64,000 nucleotides of DNA. Source: Nitrospinae bacterium CG11_big_fil_rev_8_21_14_0_20_45_15 (GTDB lineage Bacteria; Nitrospinota; Nitrospinia; Nitrospinales; VA-1). Location: the NCBI GenBank assembly GCA_002787235.1, contig PCWG01000042.1, positions 62,001 to 126,000 on the forward strand, read 5' to 3'. Position 1 is the stretch's first letter. The number at the start of each line of letters is the position of its first letter. The translations under genes and the position numbers were made by a program. Shown here piece by piece: positions 6,995 through 41,560 of this stretch. Under the pieces are notes generated by a model that saw nothing but the letters and a program-made list of their open reading frames with translations, was not told the origin of the DNA and searched no databases.

Positions 6995-7501
6995 CTATTG
7001 GTTATTTTCCCGATTGAATACGCCCGATTTGCCGCCGGATTTGTGTGAAAGTTGGATGTTATCAAACTTCATTTCGCGGTCAATGGCTTTGCACATATCG
7101 TATATGGTCAATGCGGTGACCGAAACTGCGGTGAGTGCTTCCATTTCGACACCGGTTTGTCCGGTCACTTTGACGGTTGCGGTGATGTCGATGGAGCTGA
7201 GCCCTGTTTCTGGGGCAGGCTCGTCATTTATGCTGAAATGAATGTCCACCTTGGTCAATAATAGAGGGTGACACATGGGGATGATGTCGAAAGTTTTTTT
7301 TGCACCCATGATTCCCGCAACCTGCGCGACTGCGAGAACGTCACCTTTTTTGATTTGACCTTCTTTAATTCGGCTGAGGGTTTCCGGTTTCATGTGTACC
7401 CGGCCCTCGGCAATGGCTACACGTTCGGTGATGTTTTTTTCACTCACATCGACCATACACGCGCGCCCGTCTTTATTGAAATGTGTCAGTTCAGAGTTCA
7501 T
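6995..7501 (-). CDS. moaC: Cyclic pyranopterin monophosphate synthase MoaC
   Basis: At 168 residues this is the usual MoaC length. It contains [12 protein letters not shown], the [13 protein letters not shown] active-site segment, and [19 protein letters not shown]. MoaC works with MoaA to turn a GTP-derived intermediate into cyclic pyranopterin monophosphate, the first step of molybdopterin synthesis. It is the first gene of the moaC-moaD-moaE unit, with moaD starting 31 bases downstream. The gene diverges from a YdcF-like gene, leaving 48 bases for both promoters. Confidence 0.95.
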
Positions 7502-7549: not shown

Positions 7550-8167
7550 ATGAAAAAACGAAAACTGCCAATCATGTTAGGGGCATTTCTTTTGCTTTGT
7601 GCACTATTTTTAGCAACGCACAAAACCGTTTTACCCTTGTTTGCCGATTTTTTATACATTCAATCACCCCCACAAAAAACGCAGTTGGTCGTTGCGGCAA
7701 CGGCGACGTATTCCCGGTTTCGCTATGCTTTGGACTTGATAAAATCGGGGCAGGGCAAAAATTTGCTTTTGCTTGGGGATACCCGCATAAAAATGCCTGA
7801 ACTGGACAGTACCAAACTGGAGCTTGCTCGTAAAGAGGCTATTGCGGAAGGGATCAATTCTCTGTTCGTCGAGCATTCTACCAGCACACGACACGACGCG
7901 CAGTTGACCCGTGAATTGATGACCGCAAAAGGCTGGACTTCGGTCACAGTTATCAGCGACGCTTACAACATGCGTCGCGTCAAGATGGTATTCGAGGCAG
8001 TTTTAGGAACATCTCCAATTGAAATTATTTATCGCAGTCCCCCTGCGGACAAAAATCCTTATCGTGCTGATCAATGGTGGCGATCACCGGGAAATTTTTC
8101 CTATGTGATCAGCGAATGGATCAAATTCCCCATAAATAAAGTTCTTTTATCACGGGGGCAGGGGTGA
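7550..8167 (+). CDS. YdcF/SanA-like (DUF218) membrane-anchored protein
   Basis: This 205-residue protein has one N-terminal membrane helix (about residues 7-24). A DUF218-type domain follows: ALDLIKSGQGKNLLLLGD, then a Ser-Thr-rich turn (HSTSTRHDA) and TVISDAYNMRRV. DUF218 proteins such as YdcF and SanA are thought to act at the cell envelope, and their reaction is not settled. The domain probably faces the periplasm. The stop overlaps the start of the next gene, a diverged relative, in the form TGATG. The Ser-Asp-x-x-x-Arg segment expected in the family is present here. Confidence 0.65.
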   Translation: MKKRKLPIMLGAFLLLCALFLATHKTVLPLFADFLYIQSPPQKTQLVVAATATYSRFRYALDLIKSGQGKNLLLLGDTRIKMPELDSTKLELARKEAIAEGINSLFVEHSTSTRHDAQLTRELMTAKGWTSVTVISDAYNMRRVKMVFEAVLGTSPIEIIYRSPPADKNPYRADQWWRSPGNFSYVISEWIKFPINKVLLSRGQG

Positions 8168-28439: not shown

Positions 28440-29528
28440 TCAAGACAGGCCTGTTTTTACAGGTTCAGGAGTTTTTCCGGAAATGCCGGCCGAATCAAAG
28501 GTCGCCATTTCATTGTATATTTTAATGGCAGCTTCTATCAATTGCATGGCCAGAACAGCTCCCGTGCCTTCTCCCAGACGGAGACCGAGATCGAAAAGAG
28601 GCGTTTGTCCGCTCAATTTGAAAAAAGTTTCATGTCCTGCTTCGCACGATCGATGCGAGGCAAAAATATAATCCCGTATGAGGGGTTGAAATTGCATCGC
28701 GAGAACCGCACCGGCTCCTGAAATGAGGCCGTCTATGATGCAGGGTTTTCTACGCACTGCGCAACCGATGATGAACCCTGCCATGGCACCGATTTCAAAT
28801 CCTCCGATTTGAGCGAGAGTGGCGAGAGGATCTCCCGGATTGGGCTGGTGAAGCTGGAGAGCGGATTCTATGGCATCGATTTTTCGTTTCAACCCTGCGT
28901 CGTCTACCCCGGTTCCGCGTCCGATGATCTCGGAAGCCTTTACGGAACCATAAACACACATGAGTGCCGTTGCGGGTGTGGTGTTGCCGATTCCCATCTC
29001 CCCAACAGCGAGCAAGTCATATCCGGCATCAATGGCTTCATAAGCCAATTCAATTCCTGTGTGGATGGAAGCGCGGGCCTGCTCAACAGTCATTGCTGTT
29101 GTGCGGGACATATTTTGAGTTCCATGAGCGATTTTTTTGTGGATCAGACCCGCAACATTTTTGAAGTCGTGGTTGACACCAATATCGACAACCTTCACAT
29201 CCGCGCCGACATGGCGGGCGAGGCAATTGATCGCCGCGCCACCATTCAAAAAGTTGAGAACCATTTGCGGGGTGACCTCTGCGGGGTAAGCACTGACCCC
29301 TTCCTGAACAACACCATGATCGGCGGCAAAGATGTAAACGGATTTCTTTGAAACTCGAACGGGTTGATCGTCATGAATGGCCGCAACTCGGCGGACAATC
29401 TCCTCCAAACGTCCCAGACTGGATGGTGGCTTTGTCTGCGAATCGAGCCGGGCTTGCGCTTGAACACTGGCATCCAGAGATACCGGCTGAATTTGCCGAA
29501 GGACTTCTTCTAATGACACGGCGGTCAA
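28440..29528 (-). CDS. cobT: Nicotinate-nucleotide:dimethylbenzimidazole phosphoribosyltransferase CobT
   Basis: This 362-residue protein has LGRLEEIVRRVAAI, FAADHGVVQEGVSAYPAEVT, GEMGIGNTTPATAL, and LRLGEGTGAVLAM with the catalytic-type Glu. CobT activates dimethylbenzimidazole to alpha-ribazole phosphate, the lower ligand joined by CobS. It is the last gene of the B12 unit, 9 bases after the cytochrome. The start is a TTG at 29528; no strong ribosome site is seen. Its pairing with a BluB domain upstream is functionally coherent. Confidence 0.95.
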   Translation of the reverse strand: MTAVSLEEVLRQIQPVSLDASVQAQARLDSQTKPPSSLGRLEEIVRRVAAIHDDQPVRVSKKSVYIFAADHGVVQEGVSAYPAEVTPQMVLNFLNGGAAINCLARHVGADVKVVDIGVNHDFKNVAGLIHKKIAHGTQNMSRTTAMTVEQARASIHTGIELAYEAIDAGYDLLAVGEMGIGNTTPATALMCVYGSVKASEIIGRGTGVDDAGLKRKIDAIESALQLHQPNPGDPLATLAQIGGFEIGAMAGFIIGCAVRRKPCIIDGLISGAGAVLAMQFQPLIRDYIFASHRSCEAGHETFFKLSGQTPLFDLGLRLGEGTGAVLAMQLIEAAIKIYNEMATFDSAGISGKTPEPVKTGLS

Positions 29529-29921: not shown

Positions 29922-30662
29922 TTATTCGGGTTGCCTTCTAATAAAGTCAATTTTTCCATCATGGTTACGATCCATTTCTATGCGCACGAGTTTTCCGCTC
30001 GTATCATAGTATTTCCAGCGGTCGATTTTACCATCGTTATTGGTATCAAATCCGGCTTTTTCCAGAATTTTTTTGGCTGTGAAGTATTGCCATTGATCCG
30101 GTTTGGCATCGCCGTTGGTGTCAAACGCGACCGACAGGAGTGTCTCGTCGGGACCGTATTGCTCCCATCGGTCAAAACTTTTATTATTGTCGGTATCAAA
30201 CTCAGCACGCTCAAGTTTTTCATTGGTATCAAAAAACTGCCGTGTATCCATTATATTATCGTGGTTGCGATCCACTTCAATGCGTTGTAATTTTTGATTG
30301 GGACCATAATACTCTTTCCAGTCGATCAGGCCCTTGAAGTCTTTATCTTTTTCTATTCGAATCAATTTGCCATCAGTGGAATAGATTTGGAATTGGTCCC
30401 TTACTCCGTCGAAATTACGATCGATCTCAACTTTAACCGGTTTTTCCCCTTTGTTGTAAAAATCGATCTGATCGATGTTACCGTCGCCATTTTTATCGTA
30501 CTCAATCTTCTCTACTTTGTTGTCCTCGGTCTGGTAATGCCATTGGTCCATTTTCCCATCAAAGTTGGAGTCAATTTGTATGATTTCAGCCGAGGCGGAA
30601 GCACCCGTTAAAAGGCCCGTAAGGACCCATGCGAGAGTGGGGACGTAAAGGTTCATTTTCAT
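29922..30662 (-). CDS. Periplasmic protein of nine exact 25-residue Asp-rich repeats
   Basis: This 246-residue protein has a signal peptide (about 1-25), then repeats starting at Asp31, 56, 81, 106, 131, 156, 181, 206 and 231 without any length change. Each repeat reads roughly DxNxDGxxDxWxxY followed by about 11 residues with an amphipathic strand (KxxRIE). The DxNxDG loops look like calcium sites of the dockerin/EF-hand type. I do not recognise a named family. The start overlaps tonB's stop by 4 bases, and the cytochrome follows with no gap. The link to corrinoid uptake rests on context only. Confidence 0.8.
   Translation of the reverse strand: MKMNLYVPTLAWVLTGLLTGASASAEIIQIDSNFDGKMDQWHYQTEDNKVEKIEYDKNGDGNIDQIDFYNKGEKPVKVEIDRNFDGVRDQFQIYSTDGKLIRIEKDKDFKGLIDWKEYYGPNQKLQRIEVDRNHDNIMDTRQFFDTNEKLERAEFDTDNNKSFDRWEQYGPDETLLSVAFDTNGDAKPDQWQYFTAKKILEKAGFDTNNDGKIDRWKYYDTSGKLVRIEMDRNHDGKIDFIRRQPE
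29925..30572 (-). repeat. Nine tandem 75-base coding repeats
   Basis: The DNA period is 75 bases, in frame with the 25-residue protein repeat; the last copy is truncated to 16 codons. Copies have diverged at the base level while the Asp, Asn, Gly and aromatic codons are kept, which points to selection for the protein repeat and not a recent DNA expansion. Confidence 0.85.
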
Positions 30663-32620: not shown

Positions 32621-34429
32621 TTAAAAATCGTAAACAAAGCCGGCATAGCCACTCACGCCTGCTGTGCTGAAGGTGCTTACCTCTTCATAGTGTTCGTCGA
32701 AAAGATTCTCGATTCGGGCGGTGAGTTTCAATTGCGAGGTCACTTGATACTTTGCGGCGATACGAACCGTTTTGAATGGGTCTACCGTACCAGCCCGGCT
32801 TCGAAATCTCAGACCAACCAGCAGGTTGAAATCCTTTCCAAAATCCTTGCTCAATTGAGTGGAGAATCGATGCTTCGAACGATTGGCCAGTTTGGTGCCA
32901 TTGCCATCGCGTGCTTCGAGCCAGGAGTGGTTGATTGAAATCTGGGAACGGTAGGGCAGTTGTGCGCGAATTTCCGTTTCCGTTCCATTGGTTTTTGCAG
33001 TGCCTACCTGCACCAGTGCAAATGTGGGAGGAGGCGTGATCAGCAGATTGGTGAAGCGCGTTTCAAAATAGGTGATGTCAAAATGCACACGATCCTCCAA
33101 AAGGCTTTGTTTGACACCCGCTTCCCAGCCTTTGCTTTCTTCAGGTTTCAATCCGGCACGACCAAAGTTTGGGAAAAACTGTTGATTGAATGTCGGAGCC
33201 CTGAATCCGGTTGAATAGGACGTATGAATTTTTGTGCCCGTGCTTGCGATACGATAAGCCCCTTCAAATCGATAAGTGAGTGGGTCTTCAAATTCTGACA
33301 ACAAGTCTTTACGGAAACCGCCAGTGAAAGACCATGCCTCCATCCAGTTCATACGCGCCTGCATGAAAAAGCCATAGTTGTGATTGTCGTGCTTGAAATT
33401 CTGCAAAACGTTATGCCCTGCCAGACGCTGGTATTCCATACCAAACACGGTCGATACGTTTTCGTTGATTTCGATGTTATTTTGCAAGTCCAGAGTGATA
33501 TTTCTACTGTAGATCGCATCCTCTTTAGTTGCTTGAGCGTCGCGGGCGACTTCGTAAAAATAACTGGGGCGGAAGGTGATGTCCCACCAATCAGTGATTT
33601 GTTTGTTGATGGGAAGACTGACGTTGAACGTTTTTGTCCCACTTTGTCGAGTGAAGTCATCACCACCATTGAGAGCATCAATATCCACATCAGAAGCTGA
33701 ATAACGACCGATGAAATCGATCCTCAAATCACCTTCTAAATTGGCACCGCCACGTGCAGACAAGGTTGTATTTTCGTAGCCGTCATTTTCGTTCAGGTTT
33801 CGGGCGGAAAAACCGGCACTGTCGGTTCTTGAAGCGGTGACGGAATAGTCCAGCCTGCCGTTCTGGCCCGATGCGCCTATTGTTTCCTTGTATGTAGAAA
33901 AACTCCCGCCTTCAAATGAAGCATACGTAGCGGGCTTTCCACTTCCTTTTTTGGTGATGATATTGATGACACCACCGACCGCATCGGAACCCCATAGAGT
34001 GCTTTGGGGACCTCGTAAAATTTCAATTTTCTGGACGTTGTCGACGTTCAAATCAGCAAAGTTGTAACTCCCCAGGGTGTTGGAATTGACTTGCACTCCG
34101 TCGATCAGGACGAGTGTGGACTCGCTACCGGCACCGCGCAGGAATAGGGTGGAAGTTGCTCCCATGGGTCCGCTTTGGCGCAAATCAACTCCGAGCGCGT
34201 CACGCAAAATATCTCCCACATGGATCTTGCCAGACTGCTTGATTTCTTCTTCTGTGATGACCGTGGCGGAACCGGCATACTGCTCTATGGAAGTTTTGAG
34301 ACGATTGGATGTGATCTCTATTGATTCTAATTTTTCAACGGCTCCCTCGGCCTGAGAGTAAGAGGGAAAACCCAGAATCCCAAAAGGGAGGAGGTACAAG
34401 GCTCCGATGATCATTGTATTGCGTTTCAC
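32621..34429 (-). CDS. btuB: TonB-dependent cobalamin receptor BtuB
   Basis: This 602-residue protein has a signal peptide, a TonB-box-like LESIEITS, and a plug with GSATVITEEEIKQSGKIHVG, LVLIDGVQVNSN, RGPQSTLWGSDAVGGVINII. A 22-strand-type barrel ends GYAGFVYDF with a terminal Phe. It would bring corrinoids across the outer membrane. A GAAAGGAC site 5 bases before a GTG at 34429 decides the start; an ATG five codons upstream lies before that site. The B12 riboswitch ends about 30 bases before the start. Confidence 0.9.
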   Translation of the reverse strand: MKRNTMIIGALYLLPFGILGFPSYSQAEGAVEKLESIEITSNRLKTSIEQYAGSATVITEEEIKQSGKIHVGDILRDALGVDLRQSGPMGATSTLFLRGAGSESTLVLIDGVQVNSNTLGSYNFADLNVDNVQKIEILRGPQSTLWGSDAVGGVINIITKKGSGKPATYASFEGGSFSTYKETIGASGQNGRLDYSVTASRTDSAGFSARNLNENDGYENTTLSARGGANLEGDLRIDFIGRYSASDVDIDALNGGDDFTRQSGTKTFNVSLPINKQITDWWDITFRPSYFYEVARDAQATKEDAIYSRNITLDLQNNIEINENVSTVFGMEYQRLAGHNVLQNFKHDNHNYGFFMQARMNWMEAWSFTGGFRKDLLSEFEDPLTYRFEGAYRIASTGTKIHTSYSTGFRAPTFNQQFFPNFGRAGLKPEESKGWEAGVKQSLLEDRVHFDITYFETRFTNLLITPPPTFALVQVGTAKTNGTETEIRAQLPYRSQISINHSWLEARDGNGTKLANRSKHRFSTQLSKDFGKDFNLLVGLRFRSRAGTVDPFKTVRIAAKYQVTSQLKLTARIENLFDEHYEEVSTFSTAGVSGYAGFVYDF

Positions 34430-34460
34430 GAAATGTCCTTTCATTCGAAGGTAATGATTG

Positions 34461-34601
34461 AGATCGGACAGGTCTCCTGACTTGGGGCTTCCTAGTGACC
34501 GCGCCTTCCCATCTTGATGACAGTGGCAGATTGCGGTTTTCGTACCCGTTACAGTTGCGAGACAGTGCCGGAATTACACCGGACTTCCCTAAACCCGATC
34601 T
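34461..34601 (-). ncRNA. Cobalamin riboswitch upstream of btuB (proximal copy)
   Basis: Read on the minus strand it has the P1 arms AGATCGG/CCGATCT (34595-34601 and 34461-34467), the core TCCGGTGTAATTCCGGCACTG, CGCAACTGTAAC, GGGAAGGCGCGG, and the B12 box AAGTCAGGAGACCTG. All conserved AdoCbl-riboswitch blocks are present. It ends about 30 bases before the btuB start, so it probably hides the ribosome site when B12 is bound. It is a near copy of the switch at 34699-34837. Confidence 0.95.
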
Positions 34602-34630
34602 TTTAAAAACTATTGTGTTTTATAATGTGT

Positions 34631-34666
34631 TTAACGTTTTGAGGCGGTTACTGCTTTGTGGGTCAT
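34631..34666 (-). CDS. 11-residue mini-ORF between the two riboswitches
   Basis: An ATG at 34664-34666 follows a GAAAGGACACCAC ribosome site just like that of btuB, and encodes MTHKAVTASKR before TAA. It lies where a gene controlled by the distal riboswitch should start. It may be a leader peptide, or the remnant left when the switch and gene start were duplicated. It is too short to judge by composition. Confidence 0.4.
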   Translation of the reverse strand: MTHKAVTASKR

Positions 34667-34698
34667 GTGGTGTCCTTTCGCACGAAGGTAATAATTAC

Positions 34699-34837
34699 AG
34701 TCGGACAGGTTTCCTGGCTTGGGGCTTCCTACAGACCGCGCCTTCCCGTCTCGGCGACAGTGGCAAATTGCGGCTTTCGTACCCTTTACAGTTGCGTGAC
34801 AGCACCGGAATCGCACCGGATTTCCCTACATCCAACC
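34699..34837 (-). ncRNA. Cobalamin riboswitch, distal tandem copy
   Basis: On the minus strand it carries TCCGGTGCGATTCCGGTGCTG, CGCAACTGTAAAG, GGGAAGGCGCGG and the B12 box AAGCCAGGAAACCTG. The P1 arms (34831-34837 with 34699-34705) pair with two wobbles. It aligns without gaps to the proximal switch at about 85% identity by eye. It lies 75 bases past the cobU-bluB stop and 97 bases before the proximal copy. Together the pair fills the 34430-34911 gap with the mini-ORF. Confidence 0.93.
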
Positions 34838-34911
34838 GTTCCATGATGGTCAAACGGTGGTTTTGAATTGTCTAAAGAAAGCTAATAAATCAAACAGTCT
34901 GCTTTAAAAGT

Positions 34912-36153
34912 TCAATCTGGAAAATTCAATGTATAACTTTCTGAAGTTCCTTTCCAGCGGTTATAATACACCAGATTTTTTAATGCAAGTCTTTTCCCCC
35001 AGCCAGCGGATTCGAGCATGGGTTTTTTGTAGAAGGATTGGGTGTGTCCTACGCAGAGGTAGGCGACAATCTCTATATTTTCCGGCAAACCGAGATCTTG
35101 CTTGAGGCGTTCGGGATCTATGATGCTGACCCAACCGACTGCGATGCCTTCAGCGCGGGCGGCGAGCCAAAGATTTTGTACGGCACAACAGGCACTGAAA
35201 ACATCGGTCTCTGGCATGGTATTTCGGCCCAGCACATGCGGACCGTTCCGGGTCTTATCGCAGGTGACGACAAGGTTGATTGGGGAATCGGTAATGCCTT
35301 CCAATTTGAGCGATTGATACAGCTCTTTACGCAATCCGGAGTAGTTCTTTTCGGCATCTGCATTTGCGGATGAAAAATTTTTGGCCATCGTTTGTTTGAT
35401 CTCTGGATCGTCGATGACGATGAAATTCCAGGGTTGCATGAAACCGACAGACCCGGCATGATGCGCGGCGTCCAATATTCTTCCCAGTACAGTGGGGTCA
35501 ACAGGGTCGGGCAGAAAATGCCGCATGTCTCTGCGCTTGTAGATGGCTTCGTAAAGGCCCTTCTTTTTCTCTTTGGAAAATTCGTGAGGCTCTGATTTCT
35601 GTTCTGATTCCTGTGGAAGTTTTTCTGCCGCTTTAATAGTGACGGGGATTCCAGAAACCATGTGCACGACCTCATCGAATCCCGTAGCGAATTCCTGGTT
35701 GATTTCTCCCGCAAGGTCTCTAAACTTTCTGCTCAGCGGATCGCCGGGAACGATGCCCGCTCCAATTTCGTTGGTGATGACGATGACGGTGAAAGGAACT
35801 TTCTTGCAAGTTTCAATCAGTGTTTTTACTTTGCTTAGAATGCCAGTATCGTCCATTTCCTGCATGAGCATATTGCTCAACCACAAAGTCAGGCAATCCA
35901 GTAGAACAACATCATTTGACCCCGGCGCAATCTTCAGCATGGTTTTTGTCGGGTCGAGAGGCTCTTCCAATGTGATCCATTCGGGGCCGCGTTCGTCTTT
36001 ATGACGTTGAACGCGATCTTTCATCTCCTGGTCCAGTGTTTCGGCAGTGGCGATGAAATATTTTTTCCCGGCATGCTCATTTCCCAAGGCGAGAGCGCGT
36101 TTGCTTTTTCCGCTTCTTGAGCCACCGGTGAGTAAAATGGTTTTCTTTGACAT
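34912..36153 (-). CDS. cobU: CobU-BluB fusion protein
   Basis: Residues 1-178 form CobU: P-loop TGGSRSGKS at 9-17, the guanylylated-type His51 in QRHKDERGPEW, and ITNEIGAGIVP. CobU phosphorylates adenosylcobinamide and adds GMP. A Glu/Lys/Ser-rich linker (179-197) joins it to BluB (198-413), a nitroreductase-fold domain with YKRRDMRHFLPDPVD, GFMQPWNFIVIDD and LWLAARAEGIAVGWVSI. BluB breaks FMN with oxygen to make dimethylbenzimidazole. I chose the ATG at 36153; upstream in-frame residues overlap cobS. It follows cobS by 40 bases. Confidence 0.92.
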   Translation of the reverse strand: MSKKTILLTGGSRSGKSKRALALGNEHAGKKYFIATAETLDQEMKDRVQRHKDERGPEWITLEEPLDPTKTMLKIAPGSNDVVLLDCLTLWLSNMLMQEMDDTGILSKVKTLIETCKKVPFTVIVITNEIGAGIVPGDPLSRKFRDLAGEINQEFATGFDEVVHMVSGIPVTIKAAEKLPQESEQKSEPHEFSKEKKKGLYEAIYKRRDMRHFLPDPVDPTVLGRILDAAHHAGSVGFMQPWNFIVIDDPEIKQTMAKNFSSANADAEKNYSGLRKELYQSLKLEGITDSPINLVVTCDKTRNGPHVLGRNTMPETDVFSACCAVQNLWLAARAEGIAVGWVSIIDPERLKQDLGLPENIEIVAYLCVGHTQSFYKKPMLESAGWGKRLALKNLVYYNRWKGTSESYTLNFPD

Positions 36154-36193: not shown

Positions 36194-36925
36194 TTATGAG
36201 CAGGCGCAAAATACACCTCCCAAAACAAGAGTCAATGTTTCTATTATTTCTCCCAGCGCACCGAGACCGTCTCCGGTGACACCGCCGATTTTATTTTCAA
36301 ACCAACGCAGTATGCAATAGCCCGTTATAAAAAACAGAAAAAGCACTGCAAGCCCTTCAGCAAGGCCTATATAAAAAGCGAGTGTGAAAGGAATAACACC
36401 TCCCGCAAGGTATTGATATTTTCCTTTTTGGTAGAGCCAGTTGGATAAGGCGGCGTCGGATTGCGGATGACGCATGACAACGAGACCCGTGGTCAACATG
36501 GTCCTTCCCAGAGCCGGGGCAAGGATCAGCCATCCCATTCCATGCTCACCGCATATTGCGAGCAGTCCTGCATATTTTAGCAGAAAGCAGAGGCAGAGGG
36601 TCAACACACCCATAACGCCTATGCGTGGGTCTTTCATGATAAGTAGCGTTTGCTCGCGATCGCGATGCGAGAACATCCCGTCGGCACTGTCCGCAAGTCC
36701 ATCGAGATGAAGTCCTCCGCTGATGAGGGTCAAAAACACGATATCGAATACGGCGCGTAGCGAAGGCGTCAGATAGGCGGCACCGAGCGCGTCTATGGCG
36801 AAAAGCATGCCGCCAATGAGCAAGCCGACGAATGGAAACCAGGCAATTTGACTCCCGTCTTTGGAAAAAGACCGTATGGGAACTGGAATGAGAGTCAGAA
36901 AGCCGAGGGCGGATAAAAAATTCAT
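36194..36925 (-). CDS. cobS: Adenosylcobinamide-GDP ribazoletransferase CobS
   Basis: This 243-residue membrane protein has the conserved SGGLHLDGLADSADGMFSHR and MKDPRIGVMGV motifs, the likely metal and substrate site, and about six helices. It joins alpha-ribazole (or its phosphate) to adenosylcobinamide-GDP, the last assembly step. It lies 8 bases after cobQ and 40 bases before cobU-bluB. Confidence 0.95.
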   Translation of the reverse strand: MNFLSALGFLTLIPVPIRSFSKDGSQIAWFPFVGLLIGGMLFAIDALGAAYLTPSLRAVFDIVFLTLISGGLHLDGLADSADGMFSHRDREQTLLIMKDPRIGVMGVLTLCLCFLLKYAGLLAICGEHGMGWLILAPALGRTMLTTGLVVMRHPQSDAALSNWLYQKGKYQYLAGGVIPFTLAFYIGLAEGLAVLFLFFITGYCILRWFENKIGGVTGDGLGALGEIIETLTLVLGGVFCACS

Positions 36926-36933
36926 TAGGTTTG

Positions 36934-38448
36934 TTATGCCCGATTTATGATTTTAGTTATCAATTCAATATCGATCGAACTTTCAATCCAATCGGCAAGC
37001 CTATCCATGTGTTCGTTTCTAAACTGGTGATAAGAGAACGCTTTTTCTGGCAAAGTCAATCCTCTTCTTTTACGGAGGTGATCGAGTAAAGCATTGCGTA
37101 TCGAGTCTTCATCGAGACAGCCGTGCAGATAAGTTCCAATGACAGAGCAGTCGTCACTGACGATGCCCAACGGACAGGGTGCTTCATTGCCTTCTGGCTG
37201 AAACAGCGGGATCGACGATGGAGAAAATTGGGTAATGCCCGTGTGGATTTCGTAACCTCTGATGGTCAGCTTGTCTTTGAACAAAGGGGATACTGTGGTG
37301 TTGCGAATAACCTGACGGGTGATTTTTTCAGGATGAAGAGTGGTGTCTGCATCGAACAGGTTGAGTCCATCGATTTCTTTGATCTTGCTTTCTGTATTTT
37401 GTGGGTCTCTGATTTTCTTCCCGAGCATCTGGAATCCGCCACAGATTCCAAACAACGTTGTCCCTTGCGACCTGCATCTAGTGATCGCCCGATCCATTCC
37501 AGCATCTTTGAGATACTGCAAATCGTCGATGGTATTTTTACTTCCCGGCAGAATAATCAGGTCGGGTCGACCCAATTGCGAGGGATGAGCAACGTAACGC
37601 AAGGACACATTGGGATCATTGGCAAGTGGTGCCAGATCGGTGAAGTTAGCAACCCTTGGGTACCAAAGCACCGCAATGTCTAATGGATCACCAGAAAATA
37701 CTTGTGCGGGATGGGACCATTGCGGGATCGAGTCCTCTTCATCCACGACCAGATTGCGGAAGTAGGGCAAGACACCCAAAATGGGTTTGTGAGCCAGATC
37801 TTCGAATTGTTTGAGACCTGGCTTGAGAAGCTCGATGTCCCCGCGAAATTTGTTGATTAAAAATCCTGCGACACGGTCTTTTTCACTGGGTTCGAGAAGA
37901 TCAAGGGTTCCCTTCATCCAGGCGAATACGCCGCCACGGTCGATGTCGCCAACGATGATGACCGGGGCATCCACTTGCTCAGCCAGATGCATGTTGACGA
38001 GGTCCCATTGTTTGAGATTGATTTCGGCAGGACTGCCGGCACCTTCGATAACGATCAGATCGTAGTCTTTTGCAAGTGTATCAAAGGCATCTTTTACGAT
38101 CTGTTTGTGTTTTTCATGCCGTTCAAAATAATCCTCGGCGACACGGTTGCCCTGGGCTTTTCCCATGAGGACGACTTGAGAAAGGTTATCGCCAATGGGT
38201 TTGATGAGAATAGGGTTCATCTCCACACGTGGTGCAATATTGCAGGCTTCTGCCTGATAGGACTGAGCCCGGCTGATCTCTCCCCCTTCGGGTGTCACAA
38301 AGGAATTGAGCGACATGTTTTGGGCTTTGAATGGAGCGACCTTCCAGCCTTTTCTGTGCAGGAGTCGGCAGATCCCCGCAGTGATGACGCTTTTACCAAC
38401 ATCGGACCCGGTGCCCTGGATCATCAGTGTTTTTGCTTTATGGGTCAT
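36934..38448 (-). CDS. cobQ: Cobyric acid synthase CobQ/CbiP
   Basis: This 504-residue protein has an N-terminal synthetase domain (LMIQGTGSDVGKSVITAG, FKAQNMSLNSFVT) and a C-terminal class I glutaminase-like domain with LFGICGGFQMLG (nucleophile Cys) and GTYLHG. It amidates four side chains of adenosylcobyrinic diamide. The open frame continues 151 codons upstream, but that part overlaps btuC and is low-complexity shadow; the ATG at 38448 overlaps the btuC stop as ATGA. No earlier corrin genes are present, so it may serve salvage. Confidence 0.95.
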   Translation of the reverse strand: MTHKAKTLMIQGTGSDVGKSVITAGICRLLHRKGWKVAPFKAQNMSLNSFVTPEGGEISRAQSYQAEACNIAPRVEMNPILIKPIGDNLSQVVLMGKAQGNRVAEDYFERHEKHKQIVKDAFDTLAKDYDLIVIEGAGSPAEINLKQWDLVNMHLAEQVDAPVIIVGDIDRGGVFAWMKGTLDLLEPSEKDRVAGFLINKFRGDIELLKPGLKQFEDLAHKPILGVLPYFRNLVVDEEDSIPQWSHPAQVFSGDPLDIAVLWYPRVANFTDLAPLANDPNVSLRYVAHPSQLGRPDLIILPGSKNTIDDLQYLKDAGMDRAITRCRSQGTTLFGICGGFQMLGKKIRDPQNTESKIKEIDGLNLFDADTTLHPEKITRQVIRNTTVSPLFKDKLTIRGYEIHTGITQFSPSSIPLFQPEGNEAPCPLGIVSDDCSVIGTYLHGCLDEDSIRNALLDHLRKRRGLTLPEKAFSYHQFRNEHMDRLADWIESSIDIELITKIINRA

Positions 38449-39449
38449 GCGTTCTTTTTCCTTTTCAGTAGCCATACGAAAAACGGGCCACCTAAAATTG
38501 CGGTGATGACGCCAACGGGAATTTCGGCGGGCGCGATGAGGGTACGGGCAACGGCGTCGCATAAGATCAGAAATGCGGCACCAAACATCATGACACAGGG
38601 CAGTAATAATCGCAGGTCCGGGCCGACGATGAGGCGCACAATATGCGGTGCGATCAAACCGACAAAACCGATGGGGCCGGTGAAGGCCACAACTGTTCCT
38701 GTGATCAATGAGGACACAATGAAACCCGTTTTTTGAATGCGGGAAACGTTGACCCCACGACTGAGGGCGGTGGAAACTCCGGCACTGATCAGGTTGAGGT
38801 CGCGGGCAATGAGCATCAATACAAAAAATCCAAATGCGACAGGGGGGATGATGGATAAGACAGTTGCGTAGTCTGTGATATCGAGTCCGCCCATGAGCCA
38901 TCGGATGATCTGAAACGATTGGGTAAAATCGGAAAGGTAATGAATGAACATCACCAGTGCGGCGAAGAAAAAGTTCGCGGTGACACCGGCGAGCAAAAGC
39001 GTGGAGGTTTGAAATTCATTGTGCCGAACTTTGACCAGACTGAAGACCAGTGCAACTGCCAGCAAGGCACCCATAAACGCGAACAGAGACAATGCCGGAA
39101 TGCCCATGATACGAAAGGTCCAACCCATGGCGATGGACAATACCGCGCCAAATGCGGCTCCACTGGAAACACCAAGTGTGAAGGGTGCGGCCAGATCGTT
39201 TCTGAGCAAAGCCTGAAAGACGGCTCCCGCTATGGCCAAAGCCGAGCCTGCTATGCCAGCGAGCAGGATGCGTGGCAGACGTGCGAGAAACAGGATGTGG
39301 GCATCAATATTTTCCTTGAAGGGTATTTCTGATGAAAAAGCATTTCGCAAATTGATATCGGTCGCACCTATCAAGGGAGCGATGGCAAGGGTTGCCAGTA
39401 AAAAGATCAGGAATATCCCAAGCGTTGTGATGTAGTGTTTTTTTGTCAT
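38445..39449 (-). CDS. btuC: B12 ABC transporter permease BtuC (FecCD family)
   Basis: This 334-residue permease has about ten helices and the FecCD motifs ARLPRILLAGIAGSALAIAG, ALLRNDLAAPFTLGVSSGAA and GFVGLIAPHIVRLIVGPD. It forms the inner-membrane channel for BtuCDF. Starts and stops overlap by 4 bases with btuD and cobQ, so the unit is tightly coupled. Iron-siderophore permeases look alike; the riboswitch and neighbours favour B12. Confidence 0.9.
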   Translation of the reverse strand: MTKKHYITTLGIFLIFLLATLAIAPLIGATDINLRNAFSSEIPFKENIDAHILFLARLPRILLAGIAGSALAIAGAVFQALLRNDLAAPFTLGVSSGAAFGAVLSIAMGWTFRIMGIPALSLFAFMGALLAVALVFSLVKVRHNEFQTSTLLLAGVTANFFFAALVMFIHYLSDFTQSFQIIRWLMGGLDITDYATVLSIIPPVAFGFFVLMLIARDLNLISAGVSTALSRGVNVSRIQKTGFIVSSLITGTVVAFTGPIGFVGLIAPHIVRLIVGPDLRLLLPCVMMFGAAFLILCDAVARTLIAPAEIPVGVITAILGGPFFVWLLKRKKNA

Positions 39450-40255
39450 GCGATATCGGTGGATGCGGGTGCTGATGAAGGGATGGGAGAGACAAGAACA
39501 CCACCGTTAGGATCGCGATACAGTTTCACATTGATGTTGTAAACTTTTTCAAGAATACCGGGCTCAAGCACTTTATCCGGTGTGCCGTCACGAACGATTT
39601 TGCCATTGTCCAGAAGCAGAAGACGTTTGCAAAATTTTGAAGCAAGGTGCAAGTCGTGCATGGCCAGAACGATGGTGGTTTTTCTATCTTGATTGAGATG
39701 TTGCAAGATCTCAAGAATCTGCATCTGGTATTTGATGTCCAGTGCCGAAGTGGGCTCGTCCAGTGCCATCATTTCCGGTTCTTGTGCGATGGCAGAGGCA
39801 ATGAGCACGCGCTGTTTTTCTCCTCCGCTGATTTCATTGAAAGAACGGTCGGAAAAGGCGAGCGTGTGGGTGATCTCCATGGCTTTTTTTGCGATGGCGA
39901 AATCGTTTACACTTTCCATTGCGAGCAGGGAAAGATGCGGGTGACGTCCCATCAAAACGACTTCAGAATTTTTAAAATCGAATGCCAGATTCTGTTCCTG
40001 AGGTGTCCATGCGATGGACTGTGCCAACTTTTTTCTTGTGACCTGTCGGATGTCCTGTTGCTTGAAATAGATAGAATGGGCCGGTGCATCAAGAATGCCT
40101 GCCAATAATTTGAGTAAAGTGGATTTCCCTGACCCGTTGGGGCCGATCAGACCAATGAATTCTCCGGCTTCGATTTTTAAAAAAATATTTTTTAAAATGG
40201 GGGTATCGTCGTACCCGAAGTTAAGATTTTTAGCTGTGAGCAATGGGGATGTCAT
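39446..40255 (-). CDS. btuD: B12 ABC transporter ATPase BtuD
   Basis: This 269-residue ATPase has Walker A GPNGSGKST, signature ISGGEKQRV, Walker B MMALDEPTSALD and the switch histidine in VLAMHDLHLA. Its C-terminal extension (about 20 residues, Ser/Pro-rich) is not part of the core. It powers corrinoid import with BtuC. It overlaps both neighbours by 4 bases. Confidence 0.9.
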   Translation of the reverse strand: MTSPLLTAKNLNFGYDDTPILKNIFLKIEAGEFIGLIGPNGSGKSTLLKLLAGILDAPAHSIYFKQQDIRQVTRKKLAQSIAWTPQEQNLAFDFKNSEVVLMGRHPHLSLLAMESVNDFAIAKKAMEITHTLAFSDRSFNEISGGEKQRVLIASAIAQEPEMMALDEPTSALDIKYQMQILEILQHLNQDRKTTIVLAMHDLHLASKFCKRLLLLDNGKIVRDGTPDKVLEPGILEKVYNINVKLYRDPNGGVLVSPIPSSAPASTDIA

Positions 40256-41214
40256 TTCCGGGTCTGTGTGTTGACAGAGCTTGAATTTTTCTGGGAAAAC
40301 AAACCAGGGTGAATGACTTGCCCGAAGCGTTCGACGGTTTGAGTCAACCGAGGTCCGGGGAGAAGAACGTAATCATCGCCAATGAAAAAGATAGATTTTG
40401 TCTGTACCGCGCGAATGCCGGGGAATCTGCTCCAGGCTACAATGCGTTCTTGTTGTTCTTCAGGACTCAATCGGGATTTTGGACCCGCTTCGATGATGAT
40501 TTCCGGGGAAACTTTAATAATGAATTCTTTGGTCACCTTGGGATAGCGTGCGGCTGTTGGAGGCAAAATATTTTCTCCCCCCGCCAATGTCAGGAGTTCG
40601 TCTAAAAAAGTTCCTTTGCCGACCGCGTACAAATCGCGGCGGGGATCGTTGCTGTCTCCCAAGAGGAGCAGGACCGATTTGGAGTGAACATTTTTCAGCG
40701 CATTCTTGAATTCATTCAACTGAGATTGAATCTTAGCACTCAATTGTTCAGCTTCCTTCTGTTGTCCTGTGAGGTCACCCAATTTTTTTATCGCGGAGTA
40801 AATATCTTTGAGATTGTCGAGCGGGACAGAGAGTGTTTCTATATTTAAATTGCGTGCGTTGGAGGCCAGTCGATTGTTGCCCCCTTGGTAGATGATAAGA
40901 TCGGGACGAAGGGTGATCCAGCTTTCGACACTGGGGTTCAGCAAGCCGCCAATGGAGGGCAGTTTGCAAGCTTCGGGTGGATAGGAACAGAAATCCGTCA
41001 CGGCAACCACTCGGTCGCCTGCGCCTATGGCAAACAATATTTCAGTGGCAGAGGGAGTCGAGGTGATGATGCGTTGATAGGCTGGGACCGATTCTGCAAG
41101 TACCTTGCCGGGAGCAATCAAAAAAAACAATAGAGCGGTCATGGCCCAGATTGTTTTGGAAAACCTGTTTGCAGGGGCAAAGGCCGAACACGATGGGAAA
41201 TTGTGTGTCTTCAT
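40252..41214 (-). CDS. btuF: Periplasmic B12-binding protein BtuF-like
   Basis: This 320-residue protein has a signal peptide ending near LAES (about residue 41) and a class III binding-protein fold: RIITSTPSATEILFAIGAGD, VGVTD-like VAVTDFCSYP, and a long helix. It would hand corrinoids to BtuCD. The ATG at 41214 has an AAGGA site 8 bases upstream. It is the first gene after the 41356-41521 riboswitch, so it heads the btuF-btuD-btuC-cobQ-cobS-cobU/bluB unit. Confidence 0.88.
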   Translation of the reverse strand: MKTHNFPSCSAFAPANRFSKTIWAMTALLFFLIAPGKVLAESVPAYQRIITSTPSATEILFAIGAGDRVVAVTDFCSYPPEACKLPSIGGLLNPSVESWITLRPDLIIYQGGNNRLASNARNLNIETLSVPLDNLKDIYSAIKKLGDLTGQQKEAEQLSAKIQSQLNEFKNALKNVHSKSVLLLLGDSNDPRRDLYAVGKGTFLDELLTLAGGENILPPTAARYPKVTKEFIIKVSPEIIIEAGPKSRLSPEEQQERIVAWSRFPGIRAVQTKSIFFIGDDYVLLPGPRLTQTVERFGQVIHPGLFSQKNSSSVNTQTRK

Positions 41215-41355
41215 CACTTCTATCCTTGTGCAAAGAAGACACCCTGCCGTAAAACGGGGGAGTGGGTCTCTTTGTCGCGAAGAGTTTTTATGGCCTCTGA
41301 AAAGTATCAGGATCTAAAATCTATGCGGGGCACAGATTTCTGAGTGATCCGATGA

Positions 41356-41521
41356 CTGTATCTGAGAGGTCCTTTGAAAGGTATTCTGGCTTCTGGATCG
41401 ATCTACTGTCCGCGCCTTCCCATTTTTCAACAGTGGCATTTGCGGATTTCGTCCCCAGTTACAGCGGCGCGACCACGACGGATTCTCACCGTCTTTCCTT
41501 TTCGTGAATTACAGGATACAG
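41356..41521 (-). ncRNA. Cobalamin riboswitch upstream of btuF
   Basis: On the minus strand the P1 arms CTGTATC/GATACAG (41515-41521 and 41356-41362) enclose GACGGTGAGAATCCGTC, TGGTCGCGCCGCTGTAACTG, GGGAAGGCGCGG and the B12 box GAAGCCAGAATACCT. It differs clearly from the btuB pair, so it was not copied recently. The 140-base expression platform before btuF has an imperfect GC-rich hairpin (about 41239-41272) that could be a terminator or block. With this switch the 41218-41560 gap is explained. Confidence 0.93.
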
Positions 41522-41560
41522 CCTAGCAAAATTGAATGCATTGTCAACTATCGGTTTGGA

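Follow-up and report, generated by a model that had tools for sequence, protein, structure and literature searches.

A single open reading frame joins CobU to BluB in the Nitrospinales: a new arrangement of two well-known cobalamin enzymes

The nucleotide loop of cobalamin is assembled from two arms. On one, CobU phosphorylates adenosylcobinamide and then converts adenosylcobinamide phosphate into AdoCbi-GDP; on the other, BluB uses reduced FMN and oxygen to generate 5,6-dimethylbenzimidazole (DMB), from which CobT forms alpha-ribazole phosphate, and CobS then joins both arms (PMC8123684). A fusion between enzymes of this pathway is known from Propionibacterium freudenreichii and other Actinobacteria, in which BluB is linked to CobT2 (PMC4657239). 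The protein described here resembles BluB-CobT2 in that BluB is joined to another enzyme of lower-ligand or loop assembly, with both halves complete and a linker between them. In the actinobacterial protein, however, BluB is N-terminal and its CobT partner uses the BluB product, whereas here BluB is C-terminal, the partner, CobU, acts on the other branch and CobT is encoded by a separate gene. Compared with stand-alone CobU (Salmonella 1c9k and 1cbu; NF004469), the protein has the same domain, P-loop and guanylylation histidine, but carries an additional C-terminal BluB. With stand-alone BluB (Sinorhizobium meliloti 2isj; TIGR02476) it shares the domain, the equivalents of Asp32 and Ser167 and about half of its residues, but it adds an N-terminal CobU and in most species provides no start codon for BluB itself. 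Both genes can also be found side by side without being joined: in Nitrospira, Omnitrophota and Bradyrhizobium bluB and cobU are separate neighbours in one cobalamin cluster and, in the first two of these, bluB comes first, the opposite order to that of the fusion, with the genes about 600 bp apart. The first-pass annotation of this DNA knew of no description of a CobU-BluB fusion, and we likewise found no report of one in the open-access literature. In CobU-BluB, two well-known enzymes stand in a new domain arrangement.

The fusion gene lies in a 64,000-nucleotide stretch of a Nitrospinae genome, referred to here as the window, in which all the features described are on the minus strand. Its frame runs uninterrupted from an ATG at position 36153, with AGAGGA on its 5' side, to a stop at 34912 (34912-36153), and encodes a protein of 413 amino acids for which orthologues were found. 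The original observation that one frame holds a complete CobU and a complete BluB was borne out by full-length profile matches. Residues 6-173 (35635-36138) match the whole of Pfam PF02283 (E 8e-54; 182 bits against a cut-off of 27), and this half also scores above the cut-off of NF004469 (176 against 161). It contains the P-loop GGSRSGKS (residues 10-17; 36103-36126) and, in alignment with 1c9k, the equivalent of the guanylylated histidine of CobU, H51 (36001-36003), which is invariant. Residues 192-395 (34969-35580) match the equivalog TIGR02476 (E 3e-80; 268 bits against a cut-off of 150, with 204 of 205 positions matched) and S. meliloti BluB 2isj (E 5e-66). Alignment with 2isj identifies D209 (35527-35529) and S343 (35125-35127) as the equivalents of BluB Asp32 and Ser167, and both are invariant in 28 sequences; in work on the S. 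meliloti enzyme these two positions reportedly separate BluB from other nitroreductases. Residues 174-191 (35581-35634) form a charged interdomain linker that contains no ATG, GTG or TTG. The linker had been described as charged and 19 residues long; it is indeed short and charged, but measures about 18 residues between the domain matches.

Structural comparisons divided the protein in the same way. In alignments with solved structures the C-terminal part matched BluB 2isj and the N-terminal part matched CobU 8yep and 1c9k, and an AlphaFold2 model (mean pLDDT 73), for which 27 sequences were aligned, displayed two domains matching BluB 2isj and the CobU structures and a low-confidence linker, with pLDDT below 50 across residues 178-208. 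A profile search of the fusion protein gave no match to the CobT domain PF02277. On these sequence comparisons both halves look like complete enzymes with their key residues intact. A search of its own genome returned the fusion protein as the sole CobU match and as the sole BluB-grade match, the other nitroreductase match being 26% identical.

Uninterrupted fusions are present in 28 of the 77 Nitrospinota genomes searched, the window's own included (L083-L110). All 28 belong to the window's own order, the Nitrospinales, where they are spread over several families and where most relatives that have retained the genes share the join; the other 27 orthologues are 54-86% identical to the window's protein, most of them 54-65%. 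Two of these genomes, G010 (3,921,641 bp) and G047, are single-contig chromosomes; one further apparent fusion, in G036, is interrupted by contig ends. Within the P-loop G10, G11, R13, S14, G15 and K16 are invariant in the 28 sequences, and the last serine is replaced by threonine in one. The linker varies in both sequence and length while the two active sites are invariant, as would be expected if both halves were under selection and the linker served simply as a tether.

CobU also occurs in other orders of the class, but with no BluB fused to it. In a scan of GTDB with one genome per species, 18 loci among the best 80 had both domains in register, all of them from Nitrospinota, and in one of the 18 (L017, on a contig shared with G019) the genes are separated by a stop codon; the remaining loci among the best 80 hold BluB alone or both genes apart. 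Among 198 Nitrospirota genomes no fusion was found, each match being confined essentially to one domain, and none appeared in about 1,180 genomes from three other phyla when the joint score that a fusion should reach was required, a threshold that could miss a very divergent one. No fusion was found on plasmids, one plasmid record having both genes together but annotated separately. As far as searched, the fusion is confined to one order, and the suggestion that it might already be common in databases holds inside that order only. Six other genomes of the order (G016, G022, G034, G040, G049 and G056), 94-97% complete, gave no CobU or BluB match, and these organisms are probably dependent on intact imported cobalamin.

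Close relatives display the same two genes in other states. In G018 (L111) and G019 (L112), both of genus g16, cobU and bluB share a frame but are distinct genes, and the junction, which consists of the end of CobU, a TAA, three codons and the ATG of BluB, equals the fused junction in length. The fused and split states are about one stop codon apart. The linker lacks ATG, GTG and TTG in 20 of the 28 fused genes; the internal bluB start is thus missing in most species, and there the join is obligatory. In two further genomes, G020 and G031, CobU is kept with an aminotransferase (CobD-like) gene directly after it, and no trace of a BluB remnant was found in either. The CobU of G031 nests deep within the fused clade, indicating that BluB was lost there from a fusion. 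In a tree of CobU plus BluB the split genus was placed near the base without resolution. An AU test did not reject all fused forms as one clade (p-AU 0.42), but for the gene tree it did reject (p-AU 0.018) the grouping by which genome taxonomy places the split genus and a fused genus in one family. The simplest reading is that the split form is ancestral and that one stop codon was lost; alternatively, an earlier fusion may have been undone by a single fission, or transfer may have occurred.

It could be argued that the join is neutral, and that the loss of a stop between co-transcribed genes in the same frame was harmless and spread by descent. The single codon that separates the two states, the freely drifting linker and the persistence of species with split or single genes all fit such a history, which we regard as a tentative possibility, somewhat on the improbable side, as the fusion has been kept in 28 genomes from several families across deep divergence, with its internal start mostly lost. 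It should be emphasized, however, that long retention does not prove benefit.

The gene is embedded in a region devoted to cobalamin. Directly upstream is cobS (36194-36925; TIGR00317 above cut-off), which occupies this position in nearly all examined loci, cobD, cbiB and cobT lying downstream in several. Next come cobQ, encoding cobyric acid synthase (36934-38436), and a B12 ABC importer resembling btuC-btuD-btuF, identified by profile matches (38445-41217). NF001989 matches residues 157-652 of the cobQ ORF as listed (36934-38901), the approximately 155 extra N-terminal residues of which overlap btuC in a different frame; the true cobQ start is probably near 38436. A cobalamin riboswitch (41359-41533; Rfam RF00174, 77.6 bits) heads this importer-cobQ-cobS-cobU/bluB run, and in four relatives cobalamin riboswitches are found upstream of cobS. 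On the other side of the fusion gene two tandem cobalamin riboswitches (34450-34869; RF00174, 92.2 bits at 34687-34869 and 94 bits at 34450-34613) precede an ORF for a TonB-dependent receptor (32621-34444), considered btuB-like from its position after the B12 riboswitches. Both tandem aptamers are complete and 84.5% identical over 142 bases, and the second ends a few bases from the btuB start; a same-genus relative, L016, also has the tandem (7294-7479 and 7566-7730), and the riboswitch there is single in L122. The gene for CobT, the enzyme that uses DMB, is separate and lies 5.4 kb downstream of the fusion gene (28440-29528; PF02277, E 7e-133). Beside the TonB gene in this B12 uptake region is a gene for a secreted-looking protein with repeated D-x-N/D-x-D motifs (29922-30662), the EF-hand match of which is sub-threshold only.

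The window's own genome, which is 97.5% complete, gave no match to the corrin-ring enzyme CbiC/CobH (PF02570) in a search whose controls were positive. Among the selected pathway families searched, the genome has CobT, CbiB, CbiZ, CobQ, CobS, BtuCDF-like genes, a BtuB-like receptor and MetH. The lack of CbiC/CobH, combined with import and with CbiZ, CbiB, CobQ, CobS and CobT, points to a setting of salvage and not of de novo synthesis, in agreement with the published view that Nitrospinae are B12 auxotrophs with a salvage route (PMC8026999). The gene set of the CbiZ route (CbiZ, CbiB, CobU, CobS and CobT) is present and, to judge from it, the host probably remodels imported corrinoids via CbiZ; in relatives the cluster adds CobD, CobB and a CbiZ-like gene. 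The CbiZ amidohydrolase, encoded at G000:C21:29400-30044 (L128) in a genome that lacks CbiC/CobH, suggests that these marine nitrite oxidisers remodel foreign cobamides. The available text of PMC8026999 contains no mention of CbiZ.

The best explanation, which we hold to be highly probable, is that the single chain comprises a working CobU and a working BluB that are tethered but independent, and that it acts in salvage and remodelling under riboswitch repression. The cobU and bluB sequences, set in the same frame behind cobS in the Nitrospinales and roughly one stop codon from being separate, would yield a protein in which the CobU half, as adenosylcobinamide kinase and adenosylcobinamide-phosphate guanylyltransferase, makes AdoCbi-GDP, and the BluB half converts FMNH2 and O2 into DMB. 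The separate CobT would turn DMB into alpha-ribazole phosphate, and CobS would then join the AdoCbi-GDP arm and the alpha-ribazole phosphate arm of the nucleotide loop. The fusion would in this way help to salvage imported corrinoids and remodel them into cobalamin, and the cobalamin riboswitch would repress it. The first-pass annotation had proposed that the two feeds of CobS are tied in a fixed ratio. The fusion does fix a 1:1 molar ratio of the enzymes on the two branches, but an enzyme ratio is not a flux ratio, and DMB, the product of BluB, is not a substrate of CobS, since CobT stands between them. The accompanying proposal that BluB marks the cell as at least microaerobic follows from the oxygen requirement of BluB chemistry, and it fits a lineage of nitrite oxidisers that are aerobic (PMC8026999).

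A different view is that the join gives the protein a distinct mechanism, either forming a larger assembly or holding BluB near CobS and CobT at the membrane, such that DMB reaches CobT without loss. In solved structures CobU is a trimer and BluB a dimer, and the numbers of chains in the PDB entries, 3 and 8, agree, a combination that would lend itself to a larger assembly. The comparable BluB-CobT2 fusion, moreover, is reported to use DMB efficiently (PMC4657239). In the protein described here, however, the consumer of DMB, CobT, is outside the fusion, the linker is unconserved, and there are species in which the genes are split or CobU stands alone; the release of DMB by Nitrospina gracilis, if that organism carries the fusion, would be the opposite of tight channelling (PMC11428151). 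We consider a mechanism of this kind unlikely, and slightly more doubtful still is its most elaborate form, in which a single chain that combines a trimer former with a dimer former assembles into a closed higher-order particle or array, bringing DMB synthesis next to CobT and CobS. Were such a particle to exist, it would be a natural nucleotide-loop assembly complex with which a B12 auxotroph turns foreign corrinoids into cobalamin. That a sequencing or assembly error joined two genes is next to impossible and was rejected, for although the junction stop codon named in advance as the sign of such an error does occur, it is an in-frame TAA in two relatives with an orderly two-gene arrangement, and 28 genomes are fused, the same frame recurring in independent assemblies of 28 species that include the single-contig G010 and G047.

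A tethered CobU and BluB bears on how cobalamin salvage is read from genomes and cultures of these bacteria. Among the known nitrite oxidisers of the ocean Nitrospinota are the most abundant (PMC8026999), and the same study lists yvqK, bluB and cobS, but not cobU, for cobinamide salvage in its three genomes. G010, which was matched to one of the three, that of Ca. Nitronauta litoralis EB, carries the fusion, and thus the CobU step missing from that list is supplied by the gene named bluB. The auxotroph N. gracilis releases DMB as a dominant exometabolite and, in co-culture, its DMB synthase gene and a gene for the adenosylcobinamide-phosphate step rise together (PMC11428151). If N. gracilis has the fused gene, as many of its relatives do, the two rising genes could be one gene and one transcript, and the release of DMB could be overflow from BluB that is made whenever CobU is made. 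The Nitrospinales offer, within one order, a natural comparison of the fused, split and single-domain forms.
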